Made by a program: the position numbers and the translations under genes. The notes beneath the pieces were generated by a model. That model worked only from the letters and a program-made list of their open reading frames with translations, was not told the DNA's origin and searched no databases. Positions 20,808 to 37,577 of a stretch of 46,757 nucleotides of DNA are shown here, piece by piece (within the stretch, counting starts at the first letter, position 1; each line of letters opens with the position of its first letter). Location of the stretch: NCBI GenBank assembly GCA_024224155.1, contig JAAENP010000011.1, positions 1-46,757 on the forward strand. The letters are read 5' to 3'. This DNA comes from a bacterium (GTDB taxonomy: Bacteria > Acidobacteriota > Thermoanaerobaculia > Multivoradales > JAHEKO01).

Positions 20808-20842
20808 GCTGTAGGGAGGGCGCGATGCGCTGGAACGCGCGT

Positions 20843-20871: not shown

Positions 20872-20920
20872 GCCGGGGCATCCATCTGGGTGGCCTCTAC
20901 TTTCGAGAGCGCCGAGTCAT

Positions 20921-20926
20921 TAGAAT
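20921..20926 (+). promoter_or_regulatory. Candidate -10 box (TAGAAT) giving leaderless malQ mRNA
   Basis: TAGAAT ends 7 nt before ATG 20934, so transcription would begin at or next to that ATG. The in-frame ATG at 20925 lies inside this box and would then be untranscribed, which favours 20934 as start. Confidence 0.45.
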
Positions 20927-20933
20927 GCCGGCC

Positions 20934-22457: not shown

Positions 22458-24511
22458 AGATCACCGAAGGCTCCGGGCAATCGGTGAAAAGCGCTCTCGG
22501 AGCCGTGCTCGGCCCGGACGGGGTAACCTTTCGGCTGCTGGCGCCGCACGCGACCGGGGTGGAGCTCTGTCTGTTCGACGAGCTCGCCGATGGTTCGGAA
22601 AGCGCTCGCATCGGCCTCGAGCGTGAGAGCGATGGTCGTTGGGCGACCCACGTCGCCGGCCTCGCCGCGGGTCAGTTCTACGGCTACCGAGTGGATGGAC
22701 CCTACCGACCGTCCGAGGGACATCGTTTCAATCCGGCGAAGTTGGTGATGGACCCTCGCGCGGGAGCTATCGCCGGCTCGGTGACCTGGAACGAGGCTCT
22801 CCGCGACGGAGCCATGCGAGGTGCGGGCCATCTTCGGGACGCTCGAGACAGCGCCCCCTTCCAGACCCGATCGGTGGTCGTCGACACCGCCTTTGATTGG
22901 CGCGACGACAGCCGCCCGAAGCGGCTCTGGAGCGAGACGGTGATCTATGAATGCCACGTGCGCGGGCTGACGCGGCTTCACCCGCAGGTTCCGGAGGAGC
23001 TTCGCGGTTCGTACCTGGGACTGGCTTCGCCGCCGGTCGTGGCGCATCTCGAGAGTCTCGGTGTCACGGCGGTCGAGCTCATGCCGGTTCAGCACTTCAC
23101 CAGCGAACGACACCTGATGGAGCGCCGCCTCGACAACTACTGGGGCTACAGCCCTCTGGCCTGGTTCGCCCCGCACGCCGGCTACGCCACCGCTGGCAGC
23201 AGCGCCAGGGGCCAGCAGGTGACCGAATTCCAGACCATGGTGCGGGAGCTCCATCGCGCGGGTCTCGAGGTCATTCTGGACATGGTTTTCAATCACACCG
23301 CCGAGGGGGACGAGACCGGGCCGACCCTGTCGTTGCGAGGTGTCGACAATGACCTCTACTATCTGCTGGACAGACCGGACCGGAGTCGCTACGTGGATTT
23401 CACCGGCTGCGGCAATACGGTTCATGCCGGCCATCCGGAAGTTGCGGCGCTAATACTGGATTGCCTGCGCTACTGGGTGGAGACGATGCACGTCGACGGC
23501 TTCCGTTTCGATCTGGCGACCACGCTGGGTCGGGAGAACGGTGTGTTCTCGACCCGCGCCTCGCTGCTCGAGGCCATCGGCTCCGATCCGGTGCTGTCTC
23601 GGGTCAAGCTGATCGCCGAGCCCTGGGATATCGGTCCGGGCGGCTATCGCCTGGGCTCGTTCCCTCCCGGCTGGGCCGGTTGGAACGATCAGTTTCGCGA
23701 CACGGTGCGCTCGTTCTGGCGTGGTGATCCGGGGCGGCGGGGCGATCTCGCGACACGGATTGCAGGCAGCGTCGATCTTCTGGCCGGGAAACGCCGCGGG
23801 CCTCTGGGTGGTATCAACTATGTTGCCTGCCACGATGGCTTCACGCTCGAGGATCTGGCCTCTTACGACCGGAAGCACAATTCGGCCAACCTCGAGGACA
23901 ACCGGGACGGTCGGGACCAGAACTTCAGTCGCAACTGGGGCGTCGAGGGTCCGACCGAGAGCGCCGAGGTCCTCGATCTGCGTGACCGCGCCAAGAGAAA
24001 CCTCGTGGCTACGCTGGCGCTGTCCCATGGAGTGCCGATGCTCGCGCATGGTGACGAGCTGGGCCGGACCCAGAGCGGCAACAACAATGCTTACTGTCAG
24101 GACGGCTCGCTCACCTGGGTGGATTGGGAGCCGGACCGGCGCGGCGCCGAGTTTCTGGAGTTCGTTCGGAGAGCTCTCACGCTCCGTCGTGAGATAAGTG
24201 TCTTCGGGAGCAAGCGCTTTCCGGGCCCCGATGACCTCGTCTGGCTCGGCAGCGACGGCCGCCCCCTCGGTGTGGAGGAGTGGACGGACGCGAACGACCG
24301 GGTGCTGGGTATGGGCTGGCGTCACTCCGCTGCCGGCCCCGTTCTCCTTTACATGAATGCAGGGGACGAGGCGCGGGAGGTTCGGCTACCGGTTGTGGAA
24401 TCAAATGGCGCTTGGCGTGAGGTTCTGAATACCGCGGCACCGGAGAGCTGCCGAGTGCTGGAAGGCCGCTTCGAGCTTCCGGCGCATGCGATGGTGATGG
24501 TGAAGGGGTAA
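22454..24511 (+). CDS. glgX: Glycogen debranching enzyme, isoamylase type (GH13/CBM48)
   Basis: A 685-aa cytosolic alpha-1,6-glucosidase acting on phosphorylase-limited branches. GTG 22454 overlaps the malQ stop and has GAAGAG 8 nt upstream; GTG 22445 is an alternative giving three more residues. Residues about 10-130 are a CBM48 domain (VTFRLLAPHATGVELCLFD, GYRVDGPY, GHRFNPAKLVMDP). The GH13 catalytic core has VILDMVFNHT, FRFDLATTLGRE with the Asp nucleophile, LIAEPWDIGPGGY with the Glu acid, and CHDGFTLEDL with the third acid. HGDEL and QSGNNNAYCQDG are typical of the GlgX/TreX group. Works with glgP and malQ. Confidence 0.94.
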   Translation: MKITEGSGQSVKSALGAVLGPDGVTFRLLAPHATGVELCLFDELADGSESARIGLERESDGRWATHVAGLAAGQFYGYRVDGPYRPSEGHRFNPAKLVMDPRAGAIAGSVTWNEALRDGAMRGAGHLRDARDSAPFQTRSVVVDTAFDWRDDSRPKRLWSETVIYECHVRGLTRLHPQVPEELRGSYLGLASPPVVAHLESLGVTAVELMPVQHFTSERHLMERRLDNYWGYSPLAWFAPHAGYATAGSSARGQQVTEFQTMVRELHRAGLEVILDMVFNHTAEGDETGPTLSLRGVDNDLYYLLDRPDRSRYVDFTGCGNTVHAGHPEVAALILDCLRYWVETMHVDGFRFDLATTLGRENGVFSTRASLLEAIGSDPVLSRVKLIAEPWDIGPGGYRLGSFPPGWAGWNDQFRDTVRSFWRGDPGRRGDLATRIAGSVDLLAGKRRGPLGGINYVACHDGFTLEDLASYDRKHNSANLEDNRDGRDQNFSRNWGVEGPTESAEVLDLRDRAKRNLVATLALSHGVPMLAHGDELGRTQSGNNNAYCQDGSLTWVDWEPDRRGAEFLEFVRRALTLRREISVFGSKRFPGPDDLVWLGSDGRPLGVEEWTDANDRVLGMGWRHSAAGPVLLYMNAGDEAREVRLPVVESNGAWREVLNTAAPESCRVLEGRFELPAHAMVMVKG

Positions 24512-24571: not shown

Positions 24572-27500
24572 CTACATTTCCGGCTGGCTTCCGCCGCGCA
24601 GCCGCTCCAGCACCGGCTCGATTCGATGGCCGGTTTTCGCCACGGCGAGGCGCAGGCGGTCGAGGACATCACACCAGCCCACCACGGCTTCGGCGACTTG
24701 CCCCAGCGATGGCGTTGCCTCTCCCGAAGCCAGCCAGCTGAGCGCCGCCGCAGTAGCTCTCCAGGCCAAGAAACGGTCCAGTTGCTCGACGGCGGCGGTG
24801 TCCGTTTCCCGGTCGTAGCCGAGCAGATGCGCGACCGCGTCGCTCTCTCTCGCGCCGGCGAGAAGCCCGCATGCGGCCTCTCGTCCGGGCGGCGGAGCGG
24901 TCTCGAGCCAGTCCTCGACCGCCGCAACCTCGACCAGGGTGGTCAGCTCGCGCGCGCGCTCGTCCGAGATGTCGACCTTGTCGAGGGCCCGGCTCGCGGC
25001 GCGGACGGGATCGAGCGCAACGAGCGCCGACCTGCCCCATCGGTGGTGCAGATACCCGAGGAGGGCGAATGCGGAGAGCGCGAATCGGGCCTCGGCTTCC
25101 CATTCCACGCCGGTCAGGAGACGCTCGAGAGCACCTCGCATTCGCTCTGTACCGGGCCAATCGAGTTCCTCTTCGACGACAGCCAGGCGTGAGATTCCTT
25201 CGAGCCAGGCGTCGAGCCCGCCGCTGCCCTCCGGCCCCTCGGAGACTTCGGCTTCGGGCCTTGCCTCGAGCAGTCCTCCCAGCTGACGGTCGAGCTCCTC
25301 GAGCTGATTCTCGAGGGCGAGCAGGGCGGGACCCGACATGTCGCCCGCTACGCAGATGGTGGCCAGAACCTCGGCGAAAGCCGTCCGGGCGTCCTCGAGC
25401 TCGGTTTCCTGAACCGCCTGCTCGATACTCGGGATGCCTCTCAGCCCGACCCGCTCTTGCAGCCGGACGTAGACGTCGGCCCGGTCGTCGAGCTCACGAA
25501 AGTCGACAAGGACAGCGGACTCGTATCCGGCCAGCTCGAGCTCCAGACCGAGGTCATGGACCGCCGAAGCGGCGCGAAGAAAGTGGTGTCCGGATAGACG
25601 ATCGCGGAACCCGCAGATTCGGTGCGCGCTCCCCGAGATGCCGAGGTTCCGATCGAGCCGCAGAGCTCCCCGCACCGTTTCGTACTGGTTGTTGAAGACA
25701 ACGATCGAAGTGTCGCCGCCGACACCGTGGGAAAACGCCAGCACGTTCTCGTCGACCGCGCCGGCTTGCCCGACGAAGTCGTGCATTGCGAAGCTTTCGA
25801 CATCGGCGAAACGAGCGCGCTCACGGAGCAGCGGAAAGATCTCCCGCTCGTGCCGCTCGACCAGGCCTTGGTTGGGCGACTCGTCGACGTAGGCGCGCCG
25901 GTACTCCATGCCGTACCGCTCGGTGAGTCCCTCGATCTGGCCGTGCGCGAGCATCGGCAGCCCGGGCATCGTGGCGAGCATGACGCAGGCACCGAAGTAG
26001 CGATCGCCGTCGCCGAATTGCTCGATCGCGGTTTCCTCGTCGGGATTGCTCAAGAAGTTGACATAGCGCCGGAGGATCTCCGCGTCGAAGTCCAGTGACT
26101 CTCGGACGAGTCTGCGGTAACCGCGATTGTCCCCGTCGCGCAGCATATTCATGAAGGCGCTGTTATAGACGCGGTGAAGGCCGAGGTTGCGAACGAAATA
26201 GCCCTCCATCAGCCAGAATGCCTCCGCCAACAGCAGGGTATCGGGAGTCTCCTTCTCCGCGCGATCGACAACGTCGCGCCAGAACTCATGCGGCATGAGG
26301 GAGTTGAACTTGCTCGTGCTCATGGCGTGCTCGGCGCGCGAGGGAATGGCGCCCGCAGTGCCGGGCTCGGGGTACCAGAGGCGCTGAATATGGCGACGCG
26401 CCAGCGTCATGGCGGCATCGAAGCGGATGATCGGAAACCGTCGCGCTACGTCCAGAATCGTGTTGGCTACCGCCTCTCGAGTGTCGGGATTGAGATAGTC
26501 GAGCTGCGCGGTGTCGTTCCAGGGCGTACTCGTGCCGTCGTTGCCGTGGTAGATGAAGCGCACGACGCCGGTCTGGTTGTCGACGCGTTTGAAGACCACC
26601 GCGGCGTCGCTTCGGTCGTAGTAGTGATCTTCGAGAAAGATGCCCACCCGGTGGTCCCGCGATAGGTCTGGTCCGTCAAAGGAGTAGGCTGGGAAAGGGC
26701 AGTCCGGAACCGACAGGAAGTACTCTGGGTGCTCGATCATCCAGTCCGAGTCGATGCCGGTGTGATTGGGCACCATGTCGGCGGAGAGTCGGATACCGAA
26801 ACGGCCGGCTTGCTTCGCTAGACCTTCGAGGGCCGCGTCGCCGCCGAGATCGTCGGCAATGCGATATCCGATCAGCGAGTATGCGGAGCCGGCCGCCTCG
26901 GGATTGCCGCAAAGCTGCTTGATGCGCTGCGAGGCCCGACTGCGCTCCCAGAGGCCGATCAACCAGAGCCCGGTGACGCCGCGCTGGGCCAGAGTCTCGA
27001 GCTCGGCATCGGGAATCTGGTCGAGGCGGTCTATCTCGCATCCGTGGCGGCTCGAGAGCTGGTGCAGCCATACGTGGGCGTTCTTCGCGGCCAGGACCAG
27101 GTTCGACATCCAGCTGCGGTCGGAGCCGTAGCGGACATCGGCTGAGTCCAGGTGTGCGAGAAAGGGCGCCTCGATCGGCCCTGGCCCCGGTGGAAGCCGA
27201 GGCTTCTCTTCCTCGGCGATGAGATCGAGAGCGGCCAGGAGCTCCGGCTCGAGTTCGGGTGAGATGTCGTTCCAGTGCTTGGTGATCCAACGGAGCTGGT
27301 TGGCGAGCGAGTCCGGCTCGGAGTCGATCGGTCTGCGTAGACCCATGATCAGGCTCTGGTCATCTTCGTAGAGTCCCGGCGCCCGGGCCAGAACCTCCGT
27401 GAGAGCGTGGATGACCGAGTCGTAGGCGGCGTCGGCGACCAGGGCACCGAAGTGAAACAGATGGTTGAGCCTCGAATTGGCGGGGTTGGTGTGGGCGATC

Positions 27501-27952
27501 GAGAAAACCAGGAGCCCGGCGAGGAGCTCCTGACGCCGGTCCGAAGCGAGTCCGAGATCGCCGGCCGTGGACTCGAAGCGATCTAGCGCTATCGGGCCTG
27601 GGCGATCGGGGAGGTATTCGTCTTCGAACGAGCCCAGCAGGCGATTGATCGTCTCCATGCCGAAACGGCGGTCGAGATCGGCCAGGGCCGTGACAAAGAT
27701 CTCGGGATCGCGCTCCCTCAGAAACCGATCCAGATAGGCGTGGAGAGCCCGCTCGATCCGACCGAGGGCGTAGAGCTCGCCCGCGGAGAACCTGCGGGTG
27801 TCGGGCGGCAGCAGCGGAGTCAGCCGTTCGGCGAGGCCCCTCGCCTCCCGAAAGCTCGCAGAGAGGCTGCGCGATCCTCTCTCGGATGGCTCGGCCAATG
27901 GTGGGCCGAGCTGGAGGGCGCTGCGGGCGCCGCGGGAGAGAAGCAGCTGCAT
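24572..27952 (-). CDS. Giant GH13-family (alpha-amylase-fold) protein with long helical N- and C-terminal extensions
   Basis: A 1126-aa protein, about twice a normal GH13 enzyme. Residues about 1-260 are helical and unknown (GRIERALHAYLDRFL, LADLDRRFGMETINRLL). The (beta/alpha)8 core spans about 290-760: region I DMVPNHTGID, region II FDAAMTL (Asp nucleophile), region III LLLAEAFWLMEGYF (Glu acid) and a region IV-like NFLSNPDEETA. TMPGLPMLAHGQIEG is also amylase-like. A beta-rich C domain follows, then about 250 residues of helical sequence rich in Glu/Leu/Ala. Active-site residues look intact, so hydrolase or transferase action on glucans is likely. Product and substrate are not predictable. 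Same strand as, and 39 nt after, an ATP-grasp gene. Confidence 0.85.
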   Translation of the reverse strand: MQLLLSRGARSALQLGPPLAEPSERGSRSLSASFREARGLAERLTPLLPPDTRRFSAGELYALGRIERALHAYLDRFLRERDPEIFVTALADLDRRFGMETINRLLGSFEDEYLPDRPGPIALDRFESTAGDLGLASDRRQELLAGLLVFSIAHTNPANSRLNHLFHFGALVADAAYDSVIHALTEVLARAPGLYEDDQSLIMGLRRPIDSEPDSLANQLRWITKHWNDISPELEPELLAALDLIAEEEKPRLPPGPGPIEAPFLAHLDSADVRYGSDRSWMSNLVLAAKNAHVWLHQLSSRHGCEIDRLDQIPDAELETLAQRGVTGLWLIGLWERSRASQRIKQLCGNPEAAGSAYSLIGYRIADDLGGDAALEGLAKQAGRFGIRLSADMVPNHTGIDSDWMIEHPEYFLSVPDCPFPAYSFDGPDLSRDHRVGIFLEDHYYDRSDAAVVFKRVDNQTGVVRFIYHGNDGTSTPWNDTAQLDYLNPDTREAVANTILDVARRFPIIRFDAAMTLARRHIQRLWYPEPGTAGAIPSRAEHAMSTSKFNSLMPHEFWRDVVDRAEKETPDTLLLAEAFWLMEGYFVRNLGLHRVYNSAFMNMLRDGDNRGYRRLVRESLDFDAEILRRYVNFLSNPDEETAIEQFGDGDRYFGACVMLATMPGLPMLAHGQIEGLTERYGMEYRRAYVDESPNQGLVERHEREIFPLLRERARFADVESFAMHDFVGQAGAVDENVLAFSHGVGGDTSIVVFNNQYETVRGALRLDRNLGISGSAHRICGFRDRLSGHHFLRAASAVHDLGLELELAGYESAVLVDFRELDDRADVYVRLQERVGLRGIPSIEQAVQETELEDARTAFAEVLATICVAGDMSGPALLALENQLEELDRQLGGLLEARPEAEVSEGPEGSGGLDAWLEGISRLAVVEEELDWPGTERMRGALERLLTGVEWEAEARFALSAFALLGYLHHRWGRSALVALDPVRAASRALDKVDISDERARELTTLVEVAAVEDWLETAPPPGREAACGLLAGARESDAVAHLLGYDRETDTAAVEQLDRFLAWRATAAALSWLASGEATPSLGQVAEAVVGWCDVLDRLRLAVAKTGHRIEPVLERLRGGSQPEM

Positions 27953-27958
27953 GCTTGA

Positions 27959-27964
27959 AGACTA
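27959..27964 (-). promoter_or_regulatory. Candidate -10 box (TAGTCT) before the GH13 gene
   Basis: TAGTCT on the minus strand ends 6 nt before ATG 27952, in the 39-nt gap after the ATP-grasp gene. It could give a leaderless internal transcript in addition to read-through. Confidence 0.35.
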
Positions 27965-27991
27965 ACGCGGAATCCGGTCAGCGTGCCGCCC

Positions 27992-29212
27992 TCATCGTGC
28001 GAAGACCTTTACGGTTTGGCCCACGGTGTCGAGCATCCGGCGCAGCTCGTCATAGTCGGTGTGGCGCATCCGGATCCAGGCGTTGGCCATATAACCGGCT
28101 TCGACCGGCTGTGTGGCCGTGCCCGGCGGCGGCAGGTGGCTGTCCAGAACCGAAGAGGCGAAGCGGGCATGGATCTCGTCGAGACCGCCGTAGCCCGTGA
28201 TGTGGCCGTCGCGGTCGGGTCGTAAGTTGATGATCCCCGTCGAGTAGCGGCGCGACGGTTTGGCAGCGGTCCGGCCGTGGACGATCGCAGAGGCCCATTC
28301 CCTGTAGATGTCCATGTCGTTGGCCGCCGCGTAGAGATCCCAAGCGCCAACCCCCGGCGGGCGGCACCCGATCTCGGAGAATTTGAGGCCCTTGTGACCG
28401 AAGAACCATTCCATGTGGGTGGCCGAGGTCTCGATGCCCAGCACTTCGATCACCGCCCGACCCATCTCCCGCACCTCGTCGTACGACGAGGCTTCGATCC
28501 GGTTCGTGGTCACGAAGTAGGGCGAGATCCAGCGCGTGCGCATGGCCTCGAGCACTCCCGGATAGTAGTGCGAGATGAACTCGTGCGCGATCTGGCCGTT
28601 GATCGTGAGGGTGTCGTAGAAGCCTTCATGACCCTCGATGAACTCTTCGGCCGCGGTCGACTCCCCGCGGTCGATGCCACACGCGCGAATCGCAGCCTCG
28701 AGCTGGCTGTCGCCCTCTACCCGGTAGGTGCCGGCGGCGCCCGCAGAGCTGCGCGGCTTGAGAATGATCGGGTAGCCTACTCGTTCGGCGAAATCGCGCG
28801 CCTCTTCCGGAGTCGAGACACCCGTCGACCGGGCACAGGGCACTCCCGCTTGTCGCAGTGCCTCCTTCATCGCGGGCTTGTCCCGGCACAGGAATGCCGT
28901 GCGAACCGAGGTTCCCGGGATCGAACAGGCCTCGCGGACCTTCGCGGTCGGCAGGATGTGGGCTTCTACGGTGGCCTCGAGCCGATCGACCCACCGACGA
29001 TTCTGGATGCTTCGGACCGTGGCCAGCAGCTCTTCTTCGTGACAGACCGAGTCGACCCGCTCATAGCCATCCAGATAGCGCTTGACCGAATCGGAAAGGG
29101 CCTCAGCGGGCGTTTCCCCGATGCCGGTGACGGCTGCTCCGACTTCTGCCAGGCTGCGCACGAACTCCACCTGACTGTGAGGAAAGCTCGGCTCGACGAA
29201 GATGACGTGCAC
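27992..29212 (-). CDS. ATP-grasp carboxylate-amine ligase, copy A
   Basis: A 406-aa ATP-grasp protein. GTG 29212 is chosen because the sequence from there (VHVIFVEPSFPHSQVEFVR) aligns with the start of the paralogue at 36360-37577 (MNVLFFSPGFPAEMPQFVR), AAAGGCGG lies 5 nt upstream, and a TATAAT -10 sits 32-37 nt upstream. ATGs at 29245 and 29263 are alternatives, but the first overlaps the -10. Motifs: LCRDKPAMKEALRQAGVP, YPIILKPRSSAGAAGTY (ATP-binding Lys and glycine loop), EEFIEGHEGFYDT, and HMEWFF...FSEIGCRPPGV with the Mg-binding Glu. This is the CPSase/biotin-carboxylase-like subgroup that activates a carboxylate as acyl-phosphate and joins it to an amine or thiol. Substrates unknown. 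Probably co-transcribed with the GH13 gene. Confidence 0.85.
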   Translation of the reverse strand: MHVIFVEPSFPHSQVEFVRSLAEVGAAVTGIGETPAEALSDSVKRYLDGYERVDSVCHEEELLATVRSIQNRRWVDRLEATVEAHILPTAKVREACSIPGTSVRTAFLCRDKPAMKEALRQAGVPCARSTGVSTPEEARDFAERVGYPIILKPRSSAGAAGTYRVEGDSQLEAAIRACGIDRGESTAAEEFIEGHEGFYDTLTINGQIAHEFISHYYPGVLEAMRTRWISPYFVTTNRIEASSYDEVREMGRAVIEVLGIETSATHMEWFFGHKGLKFSEIGCRPPGVGAWDLYAAANDMDIYREWASAIVHGRTAAKPSRRYSTGIINLRPDRDGHITGYGGLDEIHARFASSVLDSHLPPPGTATQPVEAGYMANAWIRMRHTDYDELRRMLDTVGQTVKVFAR

Positions 29213-29243
29213 CTGACCGCCTTTCAATAATGGAACCGAATGC

Positions 29244-29251
29244 ATTATAAA
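29244..29251. promoter_or_regulatory. Overlapping divergent -10 elements (ATTATAAA)
   Basis: On the minus strand TATAAT (29249-29244) would start the ATP-grasp A mRNA near 29237, leaving room for its ribosome site. On the plus strand TATAAA (29246-29251) lies 10 nt before ATG 29262 of the S51-like gene. The two boxes share the palindrome TTATAA, so one symmetric element can serve both genes. Confidence 0.5.
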
Positions 29252-29261
29252 CGTCTGCACC

Positions 29262-30221
29262 ATGGGTGCGATTGTTCTACTCGGTCCGCAACGGCTGCGT
29301 CCGATACTCGATCGCGTCGTTGCCGACCTGGGAATCGACGGCCGCATCGCCGCGATCACGGCCGGATGGCAGGAGCGGGAGGCTGAAGACGACGACCTTG
29401 CCGAGCACTTGGGTAGCAGGACGGTCAACCTTCGGTTGTACGCCCGAGCCGAGCAGGTGTTCGAGTCGGACGCAGGATTGGCGGCGGCGTATCGCGAACG
29501 CCAGGGACTTTTGAGACGCGCCCAGGAGCTCTACCGGTTGCGGCTGGATCACGCCATGGCCGCGGTTCGCGAGCTGATGCGGCGACAGGGCGAGGCGGAG
29601 CTCCTCGAAGCGGAGCGCAAGGCGGCCTTCAAGGGGGTGCGGCGGCTGGACGATGAGCATCTCGAGCGGGTTCGGATGGTGCACGCCAGGTTCGATGAAG
29701 AGTGGTCGCCACTGAAGCGGCCGGCCGTGAACAAGCAGCGCGAGCAACTAGCCACAGCCCTCTCCGGTTGCGATGCCGTCGCGGTAGCCGGCGGACACGT
29801 GGCGGTGCTCCTCAATCGCCTCAGGCTCTTCGGGCTCGATCGCCTGATCGGTAACCTACCGGTTCTGGCCTGGTCGGCCGGTGCGATGGCTCTGGCGCGG
29901 AGGGTGGTCTTGTTTCACGACTCGCCTCCGCAGGGATTCGGCAATGCCGAGGTTCTGGAGTCGGGCCTCGGGCTTTACAGCGGCATCCTGCCGATGCCTC
30001 ATGCGCGCCGCCGTCTCAAGCTCGGAGACCCGGACCGAATCACCGAGCTCGCGCGTCGCTTTGCCCCGCGGTTTTGCGTACCCATGGACGACGGTGATTA
30101 CTTGAAGATCGAGGGCACGACAGTCTGGGCCGAGGCCCCGGTCCGCAGGCTGACCATCGAGGGTCACGTCGAGCGGCTCGAGGTCGAACGGAATGACGTC
30201 GGCCGGGTGAGGTCTTTATGA
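29262..30221 (+). CDS. S51-like serine peptidase / class I amidotransferase-fold hydrolase
   Basis: A 319-aa cytosolic protein. The N-terminal beta strand MGAIVLLGPQ and the later VAVAGGHVAVLLNRL followed by PVLAWSAGAMALARRVVL match the peptidase E/cyanophycinase fold. The nucleophile elbow is WSAGAM with Ser 205 where amidotransferases have Cys. A predicted long helical insertion (about residues 70-150, with LYRLRLDHAMAAVRELM and ERVRMVHARFDEEW) separates the first strand from the GGH loop, which is unusual for S51. The C-terminal FCVPMDDGDYLKIEG may hold remaining active-site parts. It is divergent from ATP-grasp A and overlaps the esterase gene by four bases (ATGA), so it belongs to this cluster. 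Inferred role: hydrolysis of an amide or isopeptide made by the neighbouring ligases. Confidence 0.75.
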   Translation: MGAIVLLGPQRLRPILDRVVADLGIDGRIAAITAGWQEREAEDDDLAEHLGSRTVNLRLYARAEQVFESDAGLAAAYRERQGLLRRAQELYRLRLDHAMAAVRELMRRQGEAELLEAERKAAFKGVRRLDDEHLERVRMVHARFDEEWSPLKRPAVNKQREQLATALSGCDAVAVAGGHVAVLLNRLRLFGLDRLIGNLPVLAWSAGAMALARRVVLFHDSPPQGFGNAEVLESGLGLYSGILPMPHARRRLKLGDPDRITELARRFAPRFCVPMDDGDYLKIEGTTVWAEAPVRRLTIEGHVERLEVERNDVGRVRSL

Positions 30222-31357
30222 GCTTGGCAGTTCGTGAGCTTGAGAAGGCCTATGCCAGCGCACCGGAAGCCATCGACCGGTTTCTCGCCGATCGGAGCTT
30301 TCCGCTGCAGGAGGGCACGACGACGACCTTCGTCTATCGCGGGCCGGCCGATGAAGTCCATTTGCGTCACTGGATCTTCGGGCTCGAGTCCTCGCTGGCA
30401 TTTACACGGCTGGGGGAGAGCGACCTCTGGTACTTGGTGCTCGAGCTGCCCGAGCTCTCTCGTGTCGAATACAAGCTCGACGTCGTTCGGGACGGCAAGG
30501 GCGAGTGGATCCAGGATCCACTCAACCCGCTCGTCGCCCACGATCCCTTTGGCGCCAATTCCGTCTACCAAGGGGTCGGCTATGAAACGCCCGAGTGGGC
30601 CACCCCTGACGAAGAGGCACGAGTTGGAGAGATGGAGGAGATCGCAGTTCGCAGCCAAGCCTTCAACGAAGACCGGCTTCTTAGGGTGTACGTGCCGGCC
30701 CGCTTTCGCAAGAACCGGCGCTATCCGGTGCTCCTTGTACACGACGGTGCCGACTATCTGCGCTACGCCGGCTTGCAGACCGTTCTCGACAACCTCATCT
30801 ACCGCCTCGAGATTCCCGAGCTCGTCGTGGCCATGACGGATTCGGGCGATCGGCTCGGTGAGTACACCTCGAACCCGGATCACGATCGCTTCATCGCCGA
30901 GGAGGTCCCCACCGCCTTGGAGAGGCGTTTTCCCGTTGACCCGGACCGGTCGGCTTGGGGTCTCATGGGCGCCAGCCTCGGCGCGGTGGCTACGCTTTCG
31001 GCTGCCTGGCGCAATCCCGGCCGCTTCGGGAAGCTCCTGCTGCAGTCGGGCTCGTTCGTTTTCACGGACATCGGTGACCACAACTGGCGCGGACCGCAGT
31101 GGGACCAGGTGGTGAGTTTCATGAACGCGTTTCGAGAAGCGCCGGGAAGCCCCGCCGAGAGCCTGTTCGTGAGCTGCGGTATCTACGAGTCGCTCATCTA
31201 TGAGAACCGATCTCTTTTGCCGATACTCCAGACGACCGGGATGGACGTGCGCTATGTCGAAGCCAGGGACGGTCACAACTGGGAGAACTGGCGTGACCGG
31301 CTGCGGGTGGGACTGTCGTGGTTGTTCCCCGGTCCCCTCTGGATGGTTTATGAGTGA
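30218..31357 (+). CDS. Enterochelin-esterase-like alpha/beta hydrolase with N-terminal beta-sandwich domain (esterase 1)
   Basis: A 379-aa protein whose ATG overlaps the preceding stop. Residues about 35-130 form an E-set/Fes-N or CBM48-like domain (VHLRHWIFGLESS, LPELSRVEYKLDVVRDG, IQDPLNPLVAHDPFGANS). Residues about 145-370 are a PF00756-type esterase: RVYVPARFRKNRRYPVLLVHDG, the nucleophile elbow MGASLGAVATL with Ser 253, and DGHNWENWRDRL with likely catalytic His 353. No signal peptide, so cytosolic. Fes-like esterases cleave acyl or siderophore esters; no siderophore genes are nearby, and the glycogen and ATP-grasp neighbours suggest another ester or acyl-glycan substrate. The stop codon lies in the left arm of a large inverted repeat. 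Confidence 0.85.
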   Translation: MSLAVRELEKAYASAPEAIDRFLADRSFPLQEGTTTTFVYRGPADEVHLRHWIFGLESSLAFTRLGESDLWYLVLELPELSRVEYKLDVVRDGKGEWIQDPLNPLVAHDPFGANSVYQGVGYETPEWATPDEEARVGEMEEIAVRSQAFNEDRLLRVYVPARFRKNRRYPVLLVHDGADYLRYAGLQTVLDNLIYRLEIPELVVAMTDSGDRLGEYTSNPDHDRFIAEEVPTALERRFPVDPDRSAWGLMGASLGAVATLSAAWRNPGRFGKLLLQSGSFVFTDIGDHNWRGPQWDQVVSFMNAFREAPGSPAESLFVSCGIYESLIYENRSLLPILQTTGMDVRYVEARDGHNWENWRDRLRVGLSWLFPGPLWMVYE

Positions 31358-31464
31358 GGGGGACACAATACGTAAGATGGCCGTAAGGACGACCGGTTGG
31401 CAGTGGCAAGACGGTCACCAAGAGAGGTCATCCTTACGGCCATCTTACGTATTGTGTCCCCCTC
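31356..31464. repeat. 109-bp inverted repeat with 34-bp perfect arms (REP/MITE-like)
   Basis: Left arm 31356-31389 and right arm 31431-31464 are perfect reverse complements over 34 bp. Four more pairs follow after one mismatch. The outer ends read gagggggacacaata, and the loop is about 33 nt. It begins inside the stop codon of esterase 1 and ends 30 bp before the next ATG. Ends of the ggggacac type are familiar from REP sequences mobilised by REP-associated tyrosine transposases (from memory); no transposase is in the window. As RNA it would form a very strong hairpin and may terminate or stabilise the upstream transcript. Confidence 0.85.
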
Positions 31465-31478
31465 CCGCTCCTCCCGCT

Positions 31479-31484
31479 TATACT
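31479..31484 (+). promoter_or_regulatory. Candidate -10 box (TATACT) of the ATP-grasp B gene
   Basis: TATACT ends 10 nt before ATG 31495, just after the inverted repeat. No Shine-Dalgarno sequence is visible. It would restart transcription after the hairpin. Confidence 0.4.
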
Positions 31485-31494
31485 CGCCAGCTCC

Positions 31495-32769
31495 ATGGCT
31501 GAGGTCACTCGCAGAATCGGGCTCTCTCTGGGGGCCGACGTCGACTGGCCGATCTCGTTCGAGCGGATCTTGGAGAAGCTCGACCTGAGAATTCCGGTCG
31601 ACGGCGACACCGTGCGCTTCGAAACCGAGAGGGTCACCATCGAGCCCTTCGATCTGCGGCAGCCCTGCCGTTACGACCTCGTGCTGGACCGGGTGACCCA
31701 CTGGTATCACTCGAGTCGGGAGTGGATAAAAAAGGCGATTCTTCTTGACGATCTCTACGTTCTCAATAATCCGTGGTCCATTCAGGCAATGGAAAAGCAC
31801 ACCAGCTACTGCGCCATGATGCGGCTCGGGCTGCCGGTTCCGGAAACCTGGATGATCCCGCCCAAGGAGTACGAGCCGAGCCCGGATTTGCAGACCACTC
31901 TGGAACGCTACGCCCGGCACTTTGATCTCGATGAGGTAGGCGAGCAGATCGGCTATCCCGTTTTCATCAAGCCCTATGACGGTGGCGGCTGGGTCGGCGT
32001 GAGCCGCGTCGACAATGGAGACGAGCTGCGAGTCGCCTACGAGATGAGCGGCAAGCGCTTGCTGCATCTGCAGAAGGCGATCGACCCCTACGATCTTTTC
32101 GTGCGTTGTATCGGGCTTGGCCCGCAGGTGCGCTGTGTACGCTACGACCCGGGGGCGGCGCTCCACGAGCGCTACCAGGTAGCGTTCGACTTCCTGACCG
32201 CAGACGAAGCCACGCTTCTCGGCGACATGACCCTGACCATCAACAGTTTCTTCGGCTGGGATTTCAACTCCTGCGAGGCGCTCCGGTCGGCGGACGGCAC
32301 CTTCCATCCCATCGACTTTGCCAACGCCTGCCCGGACTCGCAGGTCACGTCTCTGCACTATCACTTTCCCTGGCTGGTCAAGGCCGCCGTTCGCTGGGCG
32401 GTCTTTTGCGCCGCGACCCGGCGCAAGATGCGTAGGTCGGTCGATTGGGAGCCCTACTACGAGATCGCCGACAGCGATCGGTCGTACCGGGAGAAGCTGT
32501 CGTCATACGCGGCGATCGCACGCGGGCGGCTTGAAGCCAACCGATTCGAGGAGTTTTGCGAGGCTCATCTTGGACACCTCGATGAGGTCGCCTGGGAGTT
32601 CTTCGGCTCGGCGGAGGCCAAGGAGACGGTTCGGCTCAAGGTCGAGTCGCTCTTCCCTCGCCACGAGGTTGAGGAGTTCACCGAACACTTCTGGGGCCTG
32701 CTCCAGTTCTGGTGCAAGACCGAGGGCGAGCGGCTGGGAATCTCACCAACACCGGAAGCGGGTTCGTGA
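31495..32769 (+). CDS. RimK-like ATP-grasp ligase, copy B
   Basis: A 424-aa protein of a different ATP-grasp subtype from copies A and C. Residues about 50-100 form a lid/N-domain with RVTHWYHSSREWIKKA and LNNPWSIQAMEKHTSYCAM, followed by GLPVPETWMIPP. The ATP-grasp core has YPVFIKPYDGGGWVGVSRV (Lys and Gly-rich loop), LFVRCIGLGPQVRCVRY, and the metal-binding part SCEALRSADGTFHPIDFANA. An unusual helical C-terminal third (about 310-424, for example FEEFCEAHLGHLDEVAWEFF) follows. Predicted to form an amide bond using ATP; substrates unknown. The stop overlaps the next start by four bases (GTGA), so it is coupled to esterase 2. Confidence 0.85.
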   Translation: MAEVTRRIGLSLGADVDWPISFERILEKLDLRIPVDGDTVRFETERVTIEPFDLRQPCRYDLVLDRVTHWYHSSREWIKKAILLDDLYVLNNPWSIQAMEKHTSYCAMMRLGLPVPETWMIPPKEYEPSPDLQTTLERYARHFDLDEVGEQIGYPVFIKPYDGGGWVGVSRVDNGDELRVAYEMSGKRLLHLQKAIDPYDLFVRCIGLGPQVRCVRYDPGAALHERYQVAFDFLTADEATLLGDMTLTINSFFGWDFNSCEALRSADGTFHPIDFANACPDSQVTSLHYHFPWLVKAAVRWAVFCAATRRKMRRSVDWEPYYEIADSDRSYREKLSSYAAIARGRLEANRFEEFCEAHLGHLDEVAWEFFGSAEAKETVRLKVESLFPRHEVEEFTEHFWGLLQFWCKTEGERLGISPTPEAGS

Positions 32770-33494
32770 AAACGGTCTCGCGCTGGCACTCGCGGCGCGT
32801 TCAGCAGGACGTGACGGTCGCCCGCTGGGGTCACTACGGCGTGCCGGTGCTTTGGTTCGCCACCGCGGGAGGCGACGCCGAAGAGCCCGAGAGGTTTCTG
32901 CTGGTCAAGGTCCTGGAACCTTTGATCGAGGCCGGGCGCATCAAACTCTACTCCTGCGACAGCGTTGCCGGCCGCGCCTGGACCACTGGCGAGGGGTCAA
33001 CACGGCATCGTTCCTGGCTTCAGAACCAGTTCGACGGTTTCATCTACCACGAGATCGTGCCGGCGATCCGGCAGGACTGCGACGGCACCGTGCCCGAGAT
33101 CATCACTGCCGGAGCCTCGATAGGGGCGTTCAACGCGCTCGCGGCGGTGTGCCGGCATCCGGATGTTTTCAGCCGTGCGATCTCGATGAGCGGCACCTAC
33201 GATTTGAGCAGGTGGCTCGAGGGTGATTGGAACGACGACTTCTACTTCTCGTCACCGATTCACTTCTTGCCCGATCTGGAGGAAGGAGCGCATCTCGAGG
33301 CCTTGCGCCGCCGCTTTCTACTCATGCCCACCGGGGAAGGCCGGTGGGAGGATCCTGCGGAATCGTGGCGGATGGCCGAGGTCCTGGGTTCGAAGGGGAT
33401 TCCCAATCGGGTCGATCCCTGGGGCACCCAGTGGGACCATGATTGGCCCACGTGGCGGGAGATGCTCCCGAGGTACCTCGACGACTGGGTGTAG
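32766..33494 (+). CDS. Esterase of the Fes/PF00756 type (esterase 2)
   Basis: A 242-aa alpha/beta hydrolase. GTG 32766 overlaps the preceding TGA; a longer in-frame version lies inside the ATP-grasp gene and is rejected. Motifs: VLWFATAGGDAEEPERF, LYSCDSVAGRAWTTGEG, ITAGASIGAFNAL with nucleophile Ser 118, and ISMSGTYDLSRWL. Near the C-terminus DHDWPTWREMLPRYL carries a His-x-Trp-x2-Trp-Arg pattern that parallels esterase 1. No N-terminal accessory domain and no signal peptide. Coupled to ATP-grasp B, so ligase and esterase probably act on the same metabolite. Confidence 0.83.
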   Translation: MKTVSRWHSRRVQQDVTVARWGHYGVPVLWFATAGGDAEEPERFLLVKVLEPLIEAGRIKLYSCDSVAGRAWTTGEGSTRHRSWLQNQFDGFIYHEIVPAIRQDCDGTVPEIITAGASIGAFNALAAVCRHPDVFSRAISMSGTYDLSRWLEGDWNDDFYFSSPIHFLPDLEEGAHLEALRRRFLLMPTGEGRWEDPAESWRMAEVLGSKGIPNRVDPWGTQWDHDWPTWREMLPRYLDDWV

Positions 33495-33516
33495 CCTCTG
33501 TCGCCGTGATCGCCGT

Positions 33517-34974
33517 CTAGCGTCCGATGAGCTGCCTGTACAGCTCCAGGTAAACCGCACCCTGACGGTCCCAAGAGTAGTCCCGGGACATGCCGTTGTG
33601 CATCAGGCGTTCCCAGGCCTCGCGGTCGCGGTACGTCTCCAGCGCGAAGCCCAGGGCCCAGCGAAAGGCATCCGGGGTGAAGTGATCGAAGACGAAACCG
33701 GTCCCCCGGCCGGTCGCGGGTTCGTAGAGCTCTACGGCATCCGCCAGTCCCCCGGTCCGGCGCACGATCGGCACGGTGCCGTACTTGAGGCTGTACATCT
33801 GGTTCAATCCCGAGGGCTCGAACTTCGAAGGCATCAAGAAGACGTCTGCCGCTGCTTCGATCAGGTGCGCGAGCTCTTCGCTGTAGCCCCGGTGATAGAT
33901 CACCCGCCCGGGAAAGTCGTGCTGCAGATTCTGAAACGCGGTTTCGTACCGCGACTCGCCCGTGCCCAGCGCCAGGAGCTGTGCGTCGCCACCAGCCAGC
34001 ACGTCCCGTAGGGGTTCGATGACGATGTCGAAGCCCTTCTGAGCCGTGAGCCGTGACACGATTCCGAGAAGGGGCGTTCGTGGATCGGTTCCGAGACCCA
34101 ATCGCTCCGTCGTCGCTCGCTTCGTCGCTCGCTTTCCGCTCAGGTCCTCGGAGGAGTAGTGGTGCTCGAGGAAACGATCGGTGTGTGGATTCCACTCTTC
34201 GTAGTCGACTCCGTTGAGGATCCCGACCAGGCGATCGCTTCGCTCGCGCAGCAGGTCCTGCAGACCCATGCCATACGCGTCGGTCTGGATCTCGAGCGCG
34301 TGAGTGGGACTGACCGTGGTGAGAGCGTCGGCGTAGAGGATGCCGGTCGTGAGGAAGCTCATTGCCCCGCCGTCCAGATCCCCCTGGTGGAGAAGCTCCA
34401 GGTCGCCGCCGAGGTCGAGGTCGTCACACAGCTGCGCCGGGAAGACGCCCTGGTAGGCGATGTTGTGGATCGTGAGAACCGTCCGGCTGCCACGGAAGAG
34501 CTTGTCCCACTCGAAGGTTCGCTTGAGGTAGAGCGGCATCAGGGCCGTGTGCCAGTCGTTGCAATGGAAGATGTCGGGCGACCAGCCCATGTGTTGGCAG
34601 CAAGCGACCGTTGCAAGAGCCAGGAATGCGAAGCGCAGCGCCTCGTCGCCGCCGTCGGTATAGATGCCGGGCCGTTCGTAGAGCACCGGGCAGTGAATCA
34701 GATAGATCGGCGGTCCGCCGCCGGGAAGCGGTGTGGTGAAGACCGTGAAAGTCAGCCGGTGCGGTCCCATATCGAGCTGGATGTCGCGCAGAAAGTCGAC
34801 CGCTACGATGTCGTGCCCGCGAGTGTCGATGCTCGAGTAGAACGGCAGGAAAACCCGAACGTCATGGCCGCCACGGTGGAGGTAGCGTGGCAGCGCCGCG
34901 CTGACGTCGCCCAGGCCGCCGGTCTTGGCGAAAGGAACGACTTCGGACGAGGTCCAGCAGATCGCGAGCGACAT
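33517..34974 (-). CDS. glgA: Glycogen synthase (ADP-glucose, GT5)
   Basis: A 485-aa cytosolic enzyme that elongates alpha-1,4-glucan from ADP-glucose. N-terminal donor-binding motif FAKTGGLGDVSAALP, then HCNDWHTALMPLYLK, TIHNIAYQGVFPAQL, GILNGVDYEEWNP, GIVSRLTAQKGFDI, and the C-terminal FEPSGLNQMYSLKYGTVPIV and RRTGGLADAV all match bacterial GlgA. The length is normal. It follows glgC by 12 nt on the same strand, a compact glgC-glgA operon. Confidence 0.95.
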   Translation of the reverse strand: MSLAICWTSSEVVPFAKTGGLGDVSAALPRYLHRGGHDVRVFLPFYSSIDTRGHDIVAVDFLRDIQLDMGPHRLTFTVFTTPLPGGGPPIYLIHCPVLYERPGIYTDGGDEALRFAFLALATVACCQHMGWSPDIFHCNDWHTALMPLYLKRTFEWDKLFRGSRTVLTIHNIAYQGVFPAQLCDDLDLGGDLELLHQGDLDGGAMSFLTTGILYADALTTVSPTHALEIQTDAYGMGLQDLLRERSDRLVGILNGVDYEEWNPHTDRFLEHHYSSEDLSGKRATKRATTERLGLGTDPRTPLLGIVSRLTAQKGFDIVIEPLRDVLAGGDAQLLALGTGESRYETAFQNLQHDFPGRVIYHRGYSEELAHLIEAAADVFLMPSKFEPSGLNQMYSLKYGTVPIVRRTGGLADAVELYEPATGRGTGFVFDHFTPDAFRWALGFALETYRDREAWERLMHNGMSRDYSWDRQGAVYLELYRQLIGR

Positions 34975-34986
34975 TCGCGCGACCGT

Positions 34987-36255
34987 TCAGATCACGGTGC
35001 CTGGAGGAATTACGGCGCCGCGCGGCACCACTATGATGCCGCCCCGAATGCTGTAGTTCTCTTCGTCGGTCTCCTCGACCCCGCCCTCGTTCATCAACCT
35101 CGAGTCGTGCCCCACGCGGGCATCCAGGTCTATGATGGCCCGTCGAACTCGGCAGTTGGCGCCGATGCCCAGCGGAACCTCGGAAGACTCGTCGTTAGAG
35201 GGAGCGAAGTGAGTGGCGCCCATTACGACCGTTTGGTCGATGATCGAGCCGGAGCGTACCAGGCCACGGATTCCGACGATCGAGCTCGACAGCCGGCTGC
35301 CTGAGATGATCGAGCCGTCGGAGAGAATGGATTGCGTGATCTCACACCGATAGATCTTGCTGCCGGGAAGGAAGCGCGGGTGGGTGTAGATCGGGAAATC
35401 CGGGTTGTAGAGGTTGAGCTCGGGAACTGGCACGGTGAGCTCGAGATTGGCCTGATGAAAGGCCGGAATGGTACCGATGTCGCGCCAATAACCGGGTTCG
35501 ACGAAGCTGTACACCTTGTAGTCGTCGATTGCTCCCGGAATGATCTCCTTGCCGAAATCTCTGGCGGAGGTGCCTTCGAGAAGCTCCTGGAGAACACCGG
35601 CACGAAAGACGTAGATCCCCATGCTGGCCAGGAGCATTCCGGGCTCTGCCCGGATGCCCAGGTTCTCGATCGTCGCCTGGTCGAGCATCAGGCTCTTGAT
35701 GACTTCCGGATCCTTGGGCTTTTCGACGAAGCGGGTGATCCGGCCGTCGCGGTTTATGCGCATGATCCCGAGTCCGGGAGCCTCGTCAGGGGAGACGGGT
35801 TTGACCGCGATGGTGAGGTCGGCGCCCTTGGCGCGGTGCCGCTCTTCGATCATCTCCCGCAAGTCCATGAGGTAGAGCTGGTCGCCCGAGAGTATGAGAA
35901 TCTCAGAGGGCTTCAGGTGCTGAAGGCGAGGCAGGTTCTGGCGCACGGCGTCTGCGGTGCCCTGGTACCAGTCGCGATTGGCGATCGATTGCTCCGCCGC
36001 CAGGATGTTGACGAATCCGTCGCTGAATGAGTCGAAGCGATAGGTCACGGCGATGTGCCGGTGGAGGCTGGCGCTGTTGAATTGAGTGAGCACGTAGATG
36101 CGGTAGATCCCGGCCTTGAGGCTGTTCGAGATCGGAATGTCTATGAGACGGAACTTCCCCGCCACCGGAACGGCCGGCTTCGCCCGGTAGCGAGTCAGAG
36201 GCGCTAGGCGAGAGCCCTGTCCGCCACCCAGAATCGCTGTAACTACGTCTTTCAT
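34987..36255 (-). CDS. glgC: Glucose-1-phosphate adenylyltransferase
   Basis: A 422-aa enzyme forming ADP-glucose from ATP and glucose-1-phosphate, the committed step of glycogen synthesis. N-terminal LGGGQGSRLAPLTRYRAKP and FRLIDIPISNSLKAGI are the regulatory and catalytic loops. ILSGDQLYLMD, VEKPKDPEV, YWRDIGTIPAFHQANLEL, and a C-terminal left-handed beta-helix (SILSDGSIISGSRL, RAIIDLDARVGHDS) complete the family pattern. A -10-like TAGGAT ends 10 nt before the ATG. Lies downstream of ATP-grasp C (104-nt gap), upstream of glgA. Confidence 0.95.
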   Translation of the reverse strand: MKDVVTAILGGGQGSRLAPLTRYRAKPAVPVAGKFRLIDIPISNSLKAGIYRIYVLTQFNSASLHRHIAVTYRFDSFSDGFVNILAAEQSIANRDWYQGTADAVRQNLPRLQHLKPSEILILSGDQLYLMDLREMIEERHRAKGADLTIAVKPVSPDEAPGLGIMRINRDGRITRFVEKPKDPEVIKSLMLDQATIENLGIRAEPGMLLASMGIYVFRAGVLQELLEGTSARDFGKEIIPGAIDDYKVYSFVEPGYWRDIGTIPAFHQANLELTVPVPELNLYNPDFPIYTHPRFLPGSKIYRCEITQSILSDGSIISGSRLSSSIVGIRGLVRSGSIIDQTVVMGATHFAPSNDESSEVPLGIGANCRVRRAIIDLDARVGHDSRLMNEGGVEETDEENYSIRGGIIVVPRGAVIPPGTVI

Positions 36256-36359: not shown

Positions 36360-37577
36360 CTAGCCCGCGAAGATCTGGAGCTCGGTGCCGAAGTTGTCGG
36401 CGATCTCAAGTGTCGAAGCGAGGTCGGGGTGCCTCACGATGACGTTGCCGTCGGAACGCAGCGTTTGGCGCCAGTCCCGCCGGTAGGCCCCAATGGGCAG
36501 GAGGTCAAGGTCTACGACGTGTCGACCGTAGCGGCCGAGCAGTGAGTCCAGCCCTTCGATGCGCTGGATCCGACCCTGGCCCTGAGCGCGCTTGAACACG
36601 ACCGCGGCGTTGTAGCGCCGGTCGATCTCCTGCGAGAAGCGGCCGTGGCAGACGGCCTCGGCCCAGCCGAAGAAGACGTCTATATCGCTGGCGTAGTTCA
36701 TCAGGTCCACCGAGCGGGCGCCCGGAGGCCGGGCGCCGATCTCGCCGAAGACAACCTCGCCGTCGGTCTTGCGAAACCACTCCATGTGGGCGAACCCGGT
36801 CCTGAACCCGAGCGCGGCCAGGACCTCCGTTCCCATTCGGCGGCCGTCTTCGAGCTCGGGTACGTCGGGATCGCGGAGCGTCACCGTTTGCGGACTGATC
36901 CATTCGACCGACCGGCCGATGAGCGGCCGGGGCCGGTACCAGGCAATGTTGTAGTAGAGAATTTTTCCGCCGGCACTGATCGTGTCGAAAGTGTACTCGT
37001 CCCCGTCGATGAACTCCTCGACGCTGACTTCCGGTACATGGCGCAGGAGCGGTAGCACGGCCTCGAGTTGGCGCTCGCTGTCGACTCGGTGGGTGTCGGC
37101 GCTGCCGGCGCCGGCGATGGGTTTGAGAATCAAGGGGAACCCGATGTGTGCGGCCGCAGCTGCGCATTCCGCGGCGGTCGCGGCGCGGGCATGGCGGGGT
37201 GTGCGAATGCCGTGAGCATCCAGAACCCGCTTCATGTGCTCCTTGTCTCGGAACGGAACGGTCTGGGCCAGATTGAGCCCGGGTAGCCCGAGCTTTTCCC
37301 GGAGACCGGCGGCGAGGAGCATGCCTGGCTCCCAGAGACACTCGATTCGATCGAGGCCGCAACGGTCGGCGAGAGCGCGCACTCTCGCCAGCACCGCCGG
37401 CTCGTTCCACAGCGACTCGACACGCTCGTACTCGGCCAGGCTGGTACGGGCAGCCTCGGGCAGCGCCTCGACGGGCTGGTCGCCCAGGCCGAATACTCTC
37501 GCTCCGGCCTCGGCTAGGCCGCGCACGAACTGCGGCATCTCGGCTGGGAAGCCCGGGGAGAAGAAGAGGACGTTCAT
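36360..37577 (-). CDS. ATP-grasp carboxylate-amine ligase, copy C (paralogue of copy A)
   Basis: A 405-aa protein, collinear with copy A over its whole length. Shared blocks: SPGFPAEMPQFVRGLAEAGA at the N-terminus, LAEYERVESLWNE, PFRDKEHMKRVLDAHGI, FPLILKPIAGAGSADTHRV (ATP-binding Lys and loop), VSVEEFIDGDEYTFDTIS, HMEWF and FGEIGARPPGA (metal-binding Glu). The C-terminal quarter contains AAVVFKRAQGQGRIQRIEGL. It differs from copy A around the predicted substrate loop (YRPRPLIGRSVEWISPQTV here), suggesting distinct substrates. It starts 12 nt after the exoribonuclease stop and precedes glgC-glgA on the same strand. Confidence 0.86.
   Translation of the reverse strand: MNVLFFSPGFPAEMPQFVRGLAEAGARVFGLGDQPVEALPEAARTSLAEYERVESLWNEPAVLARVRALADRCGLDRIECLWEPGMLLAAGLREKLGLPGLNLAQTVPFRDKEHMKRVLDAHGIRTPRHARAATAAECAAAAAHIGFPLILKPIAGAGSADTHRVDSERQLEAVLPLLRHVPEVSVEEFIDGDEYTFDTISAGGKILYYNIAWYRPRPLIGRSVEWISPQTVTLRDPDVPELEDGRRMGTEVLAALGFRTGFAHMEWFRKTDGEVVFGEIGARPPGARSVDLMNYASDIDVFFGWAEAVCHGRFSQEIDRRYNAAVVFKRAQGQGRIQRIEGLDSLLGRYGRHVVDLDLLPIGAYRRDWRQTLRSDGNVIVRHPDLASTLEIADNFGTELQIFAG

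Follow-up and report, generated by a model that had tools for sequence, protein, structure and literature searches.

The window, i.e. the whole stretch of 46,757 nucleotides analysed here, carries a module made up of a gene for a protein of the S51 peptidase fold and of neighbouring esterase and ATP-grasp genes. The following features were recognized:

29262..30221, forward strand: gene of an S51-fold protein of 319 amino acids with a helical insertion, identified from Pfam PF03575, an AlphaFold2 model and an alignment of 94 sequences.
29436..29705, forward strand: codons of the helical insertion (residues 59-148), delimited by the model helices, the alignment gaps and near-invariant residues.
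Residues of the same protein: the putative nucleophile S205, the GGH motif at 177-179, H247, D276/D277 and the near-invariant H219.
27992..29212, reverse strand: GraspA, an ATP-grasp ligase of the L-amino-acid-ligase type with a GTG start (Pfam ATP-grasp, 3e-10).
30218..31357, forward strand: EstA, an enterobactin-esterase (Fes)-like two-domain esterase (Pfam Esterase, 1.9e-23; structural match to Fes).
31495..32769, forward strand: GraspB, a divergent ATP-grasp protein forming a family of its own (Pfam Dala_Dala_lig_C, 2.8e-5, 24.1 bits against a cut-off of 24).
32766..33494, forward strand: EstB, a second, smaller esterase-like alpha/beta hydrolase (Pfam Esterase, 5e-9), with a four-base GTGA overlap with GraspB.
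36360..37577, reverse strand: GraspC, a paralogue of GraspA (35% identical; match to the GraspA profile at 1.4e-95).

The reading frame of the S51 protein was found where the initial annotation had placed it, and its 319-residue product contains both motifs described there, W204-S205-A206-G207-A208-M209 and G177-G178-H179. Homologues from 79 loci are 44-75% identical to the protein over the alignment and keep its full length except for a variable C-terminal tail, so that the reading frame is a real gene. A promoter scan of positions 27800-33700 gave two promoter-like sites compared with a mean of 0.6 in shuffled sequences, and one of the two, at 29202-29231 with 9 of 12 matches, lies upstream of the S51 gene. 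The neighbours had also been described correctly. GraspA is divergent, its start lying 49 bases upstream of the S51 gene on the opposite strand, and EstA overlaps the end of the S51 gene by four bases (ATGA, 30218-30221), so that the two genes are translationally coupled. Glycogen and alpha-glucan genes surround the module at 20400-24511 (forward strand), 24572-27952 (reverse) and 33517-36255 (reverse). They encode a 4-alpha-glucanotransferase (MalQ), a CBM48-GH13 protein, a 1126-residue GH13-like protein, GlgA and GlgC.

The assignment to the fold of peptidase E and cyanophycinase is borne out by several comparisons. The protein matches Pfam Peptidase_S51 (PF03575) at 3.2e-7, with 30.7 bits against a gathering cut-off of 23.9. 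An AlphaFold2 model, for which the window protein was aligned with 79 locus proteins, has a pLDDT of 92.4 and a pTM of 0.90. In a VIA structural comparison all of the top 11 matches of this model are S51 proteins, with Z-scores of 14.1-16.7 over 169-214 aligned residues, and the next match drops to a Z of 6.0. The best of them are pseudo-CphB (7uqv, 16.7), cyanophycinase (16.6 and 16.5, the latter for 3en0) and PepE (1fy2, 15.5). Foldseek gives an E-value of 2.6e-7, and by the two comparisons the closest folds are cyanophycinase, pseudo-CphB and PepE.

The relationship is more distant at the level of sequence. The single window protein has a weak match to 6iru (1.2e-4) in the PDB, and a profile of the family retrieves no S51 chain from the PDB at E <= 1, which counts against the reading preferred below. 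The profile search returned a PdxT amidotransferase (0.17, weak) and a receptor (0.8, a chance match), and both were rejected. No NCBIfam family is found above its cut-off, the PepE equivalog NF003642 giving 11.8 bits against a required 156. The window protein is an S51 protein by its fold, Pfam score, nucleophile and histidine, and it falls short of the PepE equivalog. As its nearest folds are cyanophycinase, pseudo-CphB and PepE, it might simply be a PepE-like dipeptidase or cyanophycinase of the usual kind, with an incidental insertion. This is unlikely in view of the equivalog score and of a compact S51 protein that the same genome already encodes (match at 9.8e-53). The tight co-occurrence with EstA and the ligases described below would also be unexpected for a housekeeping dipeptidase.

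The insertion is the most distinctive part of the protein. The initial annotation had proposed some 80 helical residues rich in Arg and Glu after the first β-strand. The helical character and the composition hold (16 Arg, 13 Glu, 15 Ala and 12 Leu among 90 residues), but the insertion is about 90 residues long and follows the third strand. In the model, the core strands include residues 4-7, 28-32, 54-56, 170-175 and 201-204, and the insertion consists of helices 59-69, 71-107 and 112-148. It is thus placed after the third strand (54-56) and before helix 154-168 and the GGH strand (170-175). This location rests on the model because hhalign, run over the full length against compact S51 proteins, did not align the N-terminal half correctly. 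As had been supposed, the insertion is unlike the compact S51 fold. The S51 structures compared are only 194-265 residues long and have no counterpart of it, so that at least 100 residues of the model stay unmatched.

The insertion is also conserved in homologues, most of which are encoded beside ATP-grasp genes, so that the lack of conservation that would have refuted the initial annotation did not arise. Among 94 distinct homologues the only gap within it is a single residue missing in three. Because the 94 were collected by their resemblance to the whole protein, members with the insertion are favoured; the paralogues found by profile searches carry one as well. In the alpha type, R62, D130 and H133 are each present in 93 of the 94 sequences, L95 in 92, Q88 in 90 and Y91 in 89. 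On average, the commonest residue at a position reaches a frequency of 0.56 in the insertion, compared with 0.63 and 0.61 in the flanking core. The arm as a whole is therefore slightly less conserved than its surroundings and yet has strongly fixed points. On the model, the arm appears to be an old, lineage-specific three-helix insertion beside the nucleophile domain, and this is how it enters the preferred reading. Neither the insertion nor an S51-EstA-ligase module was found described in the titles and abstract openings of the open-access papers listed in literature searches.

In a search of 59 genomes, its own and those of relatives, the S51 gene was detected in 37, and 240 further contig stretches encode a relative. 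Judged by record title, the best 80 of these 240 belong mainly to Acidobacteriota (including Thermoanaerobaculia), Myxococcota and Planctomycetota. The same 80 include four loci from Eisenbacteria (L071, L074, L089, L101), three gammaproteobacterial ones (L078, L079, L110), one labelled Gemmatimonadetes (L091) and one labelled Riflebacteria (L059). The closest named relatives among them are metagenome-assembled genomes of Acidobacteria and Thermoanaerobaculia, at 78% identity. The two large bacterial groups in which the co-occurrence described below was counted come mostly from soil and water.

A tree and residue conservation were derived from 94 of 110 S51 sequences, exact duplicates having been removed and near-duplicates remaining. 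G8, Q10, G35, W36, E40, L57, L183, G235, P246, R251 and R266 are found in all 94 sequences; S205, H179, H219, E38 and R186 in 92; and D220 in 89. In two members S205 is replaced, by Ala (L029) and by Cys (L056), and the latter residue could itself act as a nucleophile. In an hhalign alignment of the family with compact PepE proteins of related genomes, the NPH motif of the latter has its His opposite H247, and their REG motif has its Glu opposite D277.

Of the 94 sequences, 74 have H247 and 77 have an acidic residue at position 276 or 277 (D276 itself is Asp in 68). Both the His and the acid are found in 71 sequences, neither in 14, the acid only in six and the His only in three (Fisher 1.2e-9, without correction for relatedness). 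Thus, 85 of the 94 have either both or neither, as expected for catalytic partners. The Ser-His-Asp arrangement that the initial annotation called for is possible, judged by sequence, in the window protein (S205, H247 and D276 or D277). It does not extend to all homologues: 20 lack the His, and 14 of these lack the acid too. The family is therefore not defined by a classical triad, which such members cannot use. In the passages of the source drawn on here, the triads of PepE and MccG are given as Ser120-His157-Glu192 and Ser133-His168-Asp196 (PMC9239234), and that of a Streptomyces dipeptidase E is given as Ser134-His170-Asp198 in the corresponding part of PMC11078827.

The loss of H247 is most simply explained by seven changes on the tree, at least four of which are forced by well-supported branches. 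The 20 members concerned all keep Q10, W36, E38, E40, R62, Q88, R92, H133, H219, D220, R251 and R266; D130 and H179 are kept in 19 of them and Ser205 in 18. The retention of R62, Q88, D130 and H133 in 19 or 20 of the 20 makes the insertion look like a functional part of the protein. In the group of 14 that has neither the His nor the acid, position 247 is Glu in nine members and Gln in three, position 276 is Pro in 12 and position 278 is Arg in 12. EstA is retained in the locus of every one of the 20, so that the S51 genes there are not decaying.

It is possible, although with distinctly lower probability than the preferred reading, that the conserved job of the protein is the binding of a ligand or substrate, or an acyl transfer, by H179, H219, D220, R62, D130 and H133 in support of EstA or the ligases. 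The triad would then be a relic of the ancestor, discarded in some lineages. The repeated loss of H247 keeps such a binding or non-triad role under consideration, and so do the twelve residues that outlast this loss, the altered positions 247, 276 and 278 and the constant presence of EstA. The co-variation of the His and the acid, which occur together in 71 of the 94 sequences, and the persistence of Ser205 in 18 of the 20 His-less members nevertheless speak against it. Moreover, R62, H133, H179 and H219 vary outside the alpha type.

The last point comes from two related types of the protein. A diverged (delta) type, found by profile searches in Myxococcota, has the motif AGWRYDE and is encoded beside EstA in five loci (L142-L146); in locus L148 it adjoins EstA, GraspB and EstB. 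The pair of delta S51 and EstA genes adjoins ABC-2 type transporter genes in L145 (Pfam), with homologues in L142 and L146. A beta paralogue, also from Myxococcota (L131-L135), has a longer insertion. Its reading frames are 372-389 codons long in three of the five cases and longer in two, and no other module gene was detected in these five loci. In an alignment of 22 sequences (11 alpha, six delta and five beta), 17 positions are invariant, including W36, E40, Y91, D130, G177, G178, S205, P246, R251 and R266. After the third strand, all 22 proteins carry at least about 90 inserted residues, and they share W36, E40, Y91 and D130. R62 is found in 14 of the 22, Q88 in nine, H133 in 11 and H179 in 18, and H219 varies outside the alpha type. 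Position 247 is His in 20 rows and Glu in two alpha rows (L076, L097). As the His is thus shared by all three types, it is likely to be ancestral. Position 276 is Asn in five rows, which are the beta paralogues.

EstA is a near-constant neighbour of the S51 gene. In 76 of the best 80 of the 240 loci it is the next gene downstream, in the same orientation, and a tblastn search at 1e-8 gave no EstA match in the other four (L066, L083, L094, L104). Of the 76 junctions, 60 are overlaps, 54 of which measure exactly four bases, and 15 are gaps of 0-50 bases; in the remaining locus (L102) the two genes are fused and encode a protein of 742 amino acids. The EstA model has a pLDDT of 88.1. It can be superimposed on Fes (3mga) over 344 residues, nearly the full length, with a Z-score of 32.3, followed by CBM48-CE1 esterases with Z-scores of 25-27. 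Ser253 and His353 are invariant in 29 aligned sequences. Among the 18 proteins of the window, Pfam detects no siderophore or iron-transport family apart from a weak Enterochelin_N match of EstA itself (0.0037).

The surroundings of the module and the resemblance of EstA to CBM48-CE1 esterases raise the question of whether the module acts on an alpha-glucan. The N-terminal domain of EstA would then bind a glycogen-like polymer and the enzymes would add or remove aminoacyl groups. In the window the module sits between MalQ, GH13 proteins, GlgA and GlgC, and GlgA is found, in differing arrangements, in loci of Acidobacteriota, Planctomycetota and Myxococcota. Moreover, the EstA model has CBM48-CE1 esterases among its high-ranking matches, and sorted by Foldseek E-value such a chain (7b5v, 2.4e-22) comes first and Fes fourth. 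Fes is nevertheless the better fit (Z 32.3 vs 26.7; TM-scores of 0.64-0.71 vs 0.52-0.58). In the 32 loci for which 7.9 kb are available on both sides, EstA is nearby in 30, GraspB in 26, GraspA in 24 and EstB in 21, but GlgA in eight, the other 24 having no GlgA nearby. At 45% identity or more, GraspA is found in 23 of these loci and EstB in 19. Altogether, action on a glucan appears improbable.

The ATP-grasp proteins of the module point to the formation of amide bonds. The GraspA profile matches the L-amino acid ligase 4wd3 at 1.3e-23, and the best PDB profile matches of GraspB are D-Ala-D-Ala ligases (1.5e-4). GraspC possibly belongs to the same ligase set as GraspA. At a threshold of 1e-60, extra GraspA paralogues are found in 13 of the 14 S51-positive Acidobacteriota and in four of five other genomes tried; the fifth, a gammaproteobacterial genome that carries the S51 gene, yielded no GraspA match at this threshold. 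In EstB, S136 and H243 (numbered from the start of the reading frame at 32712) are invariant in 23 sequences.

Some other genes lie near members of these families. In G111, an arginine deiminase-family gene (L124:14306-15577; 8.2e-71) follows two tandem GraspA paralogues, which GlgA and GraspA adjoin on the other strand. Two families near the module resemble carboxylate-amine ligases of the GCS2 type, judging by their motifs. They occur in L060, L071, L075, L076, L080, L088, L090, L097, L099 and L102, and also in L037, L087, L093 and L100. A recurrent family of about 718 residues, which by a motif resembles a serine/threonine protein kinase, is found in L041, L045, L052, L056, L067, L069, L082, L088, L090, L092 and L094. 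The abundance of such kinases in these bacteria may be the sole reason for its grouping here. A PADLOC search with five module proteins gave no match at E <= 0.01, and a defence system was rejected on this ground. No plasmid-borne S51 copies were found by tblastn at E <= 0.01.

The genes keep together across whole genomes as well. Among 297 genomes of Acidobacteriota, S51, EstA and GraspB are each found in the same 14, and GraspA is confined to 13 of these. Among 141 genomes of the phylum to which the Nannocystis genome G341 belongs, S51 occurs in 45, EstA in the identical 45 and GraspB in 43 of them; GraspA occurs in 44 of the 45 and in one other genome (G454). In the combined set of 438 genomes, S51 and EstA are therefore present in the identical 59. 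GraspB accompanies them in 57 and is absent from all 379 negatives; GraspA also accompanies them in 57 and occurs in one of the 379. As the genomes are related, no p-value is claimed for these counts.

The counts depend on cut-offs placed at gaps in the score lists. For Acidobacteriota and the Nannocystis phylum, respectively, they were 1e-3 and 1e-50 for S51, 1e-170 and 1e-90 for EstA, 1e-200 and 1e-100 for GraspB, and 1e-190 and 1e-150 for GraspA. Below these values, S51-negative Acidobacteriota contain GraspB-like proteins in many genomes (best 1.3e-52), EstA-like proteins in nine (best 4.7e-58) and GraspA paralogues in three (G097, G317 and G269; best 1.2e-90). Two genomes of the Nannocystis phylum were not counted as S51-positive, G351 (1.9e-22), which has only a beta paralogue, and G427 (1.2e-4), with a weak partial match. 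GraspA lies on a different contig from S51 in eight of the 13 Acidobacteriota genomes and about 489 kb away on one contig in G111. Linkage alone can therefore not explain the co-occurrence, and the set stays together without it. The almost constant company of EstA and two peptide-bond-forming enzymes points to an undescribed pathway.

By combining these observations, it is possible to propose what the module does. The preferred reading, to which we give a probability of about 0.5, is that the window protein is a serine hydrolase of the S51 fold that together with EstA would form a unit cutting a compound with amide and ester bonds, built by the ligases. It draws on the predicted fold, the insertion and its conservation, the gene coupling, the one fusion and the co-occurrence; from these we infer hydrolysis, its specificity for an amide, the recognition of the substrate by the arm and all chemistry of the compound. 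The fold, the nucleophile and the co-variation of His and acid favour a serine hydrolase, the fixed polar residues favour a role of the arm in substrate binding, and the coupling or fusion with EstA and the co-occurrence with ligases favour a shared substrate. Against this reading stand the absence of H247 from 20 of the 94 homologues and of the Ser from two, the Asn of the beta paralogues at position 276, the four loci in which EstA was not found and the gammaproteobacterial genome without a GraspA match.

The process may be pictured as follows. GraspA and its paralogues, together with GraspB, all of the L-amino-acid-ligase type, would make a small compound containing amide and ester bonds. 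EstA would open the ester bond. The S51 protein would use Ser205, with His247 and Asp276 or Asp277 as its activators, to attack an amide bond, while the helical arm with its near-invariant R62, D130 and H133 would recognize the substrate.

A wider proposal is offered tentatively and with less confidence. The S51 gene might mark an undescribed metabolite pathway in which several amino-acid ligases, with neither ribosomes nor non-ribosomal peptide synthetases, assemble an amide/ester compound that the paired S51-Fes unit processes. One branch, mainly of Myxococcota, might have rebuilt its active site (His-Asp replaced by Glu or Gln, Pro and Arg) for a non-triad reaction carried out by residues of the arm. 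The gene set co-occurs in Acidobacteriota and Myxococcota, and clusters are also found in Planctomycetota and Eisenbacteria. The co-occurrence of S51, EstA and ligases across the two sampled phyla provides a testable route to the metabolite, including in cultured Nannocystis strains. A family that keeps the arm and has lost the triad in places is a natural experiment on the capabilities of the S51 fold.

The characterised S51 enzymes with which the window protein was compared, PepE, cyanophycinase and MccG, are compact and cut bonds that contain Asp. Cyanophycinase CphB (3en0, 7uqw) and pseudo-CphB (7uqv) share with it the core fold (Z 16.5-16.7 over 212-214 residues), the SAG nucleophile elbow and, as far as the sequences indicate, a His and an acid at corresponding places. 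The window protein differs from them in its helical insertion of about 90 residues. Its family has GGH where the compact relatives compared have GGN or GGD. In contrast to cyanophycinase, it is accompanied by ATP-grasps of the L-amino-acid-ligase type and by esterases, and its triad His is not universal. GraspA has only the ATP-grasp domain in common with cyanophycin synthetase CphA. Peptidase E and aspartyl dipeptidase (1fy2, 6a4r, 6iru) resemble the window protein in fold (Z 14.8-15.5) and, for 6iru, in the weak sequence match noted above. Their chains are compact (202-230 residues) and without a comparable insertion, and the window protein scores far below the NCBIfam cut-off for PepE. MccG, as described in the passages of PMC9239234 drawn on here, is an S51 peptidase that gives resistance to microcin C. 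It belongs to another cluster, and in this comparison by description those passages do not mention a helical arm or an EstA partner. It is similar to the window protein in having Ser-His-Asp instead of Ser-His-Glu and in being encoded in a dedicated gene cluster (PMC9239234). The other half of the proposed unit has its counterpart in Fes (3mga, 2b20). The two share only 19-21% identity, and the two-domain architecture of EstA can be aligned with that of Fes over nearly its full length.
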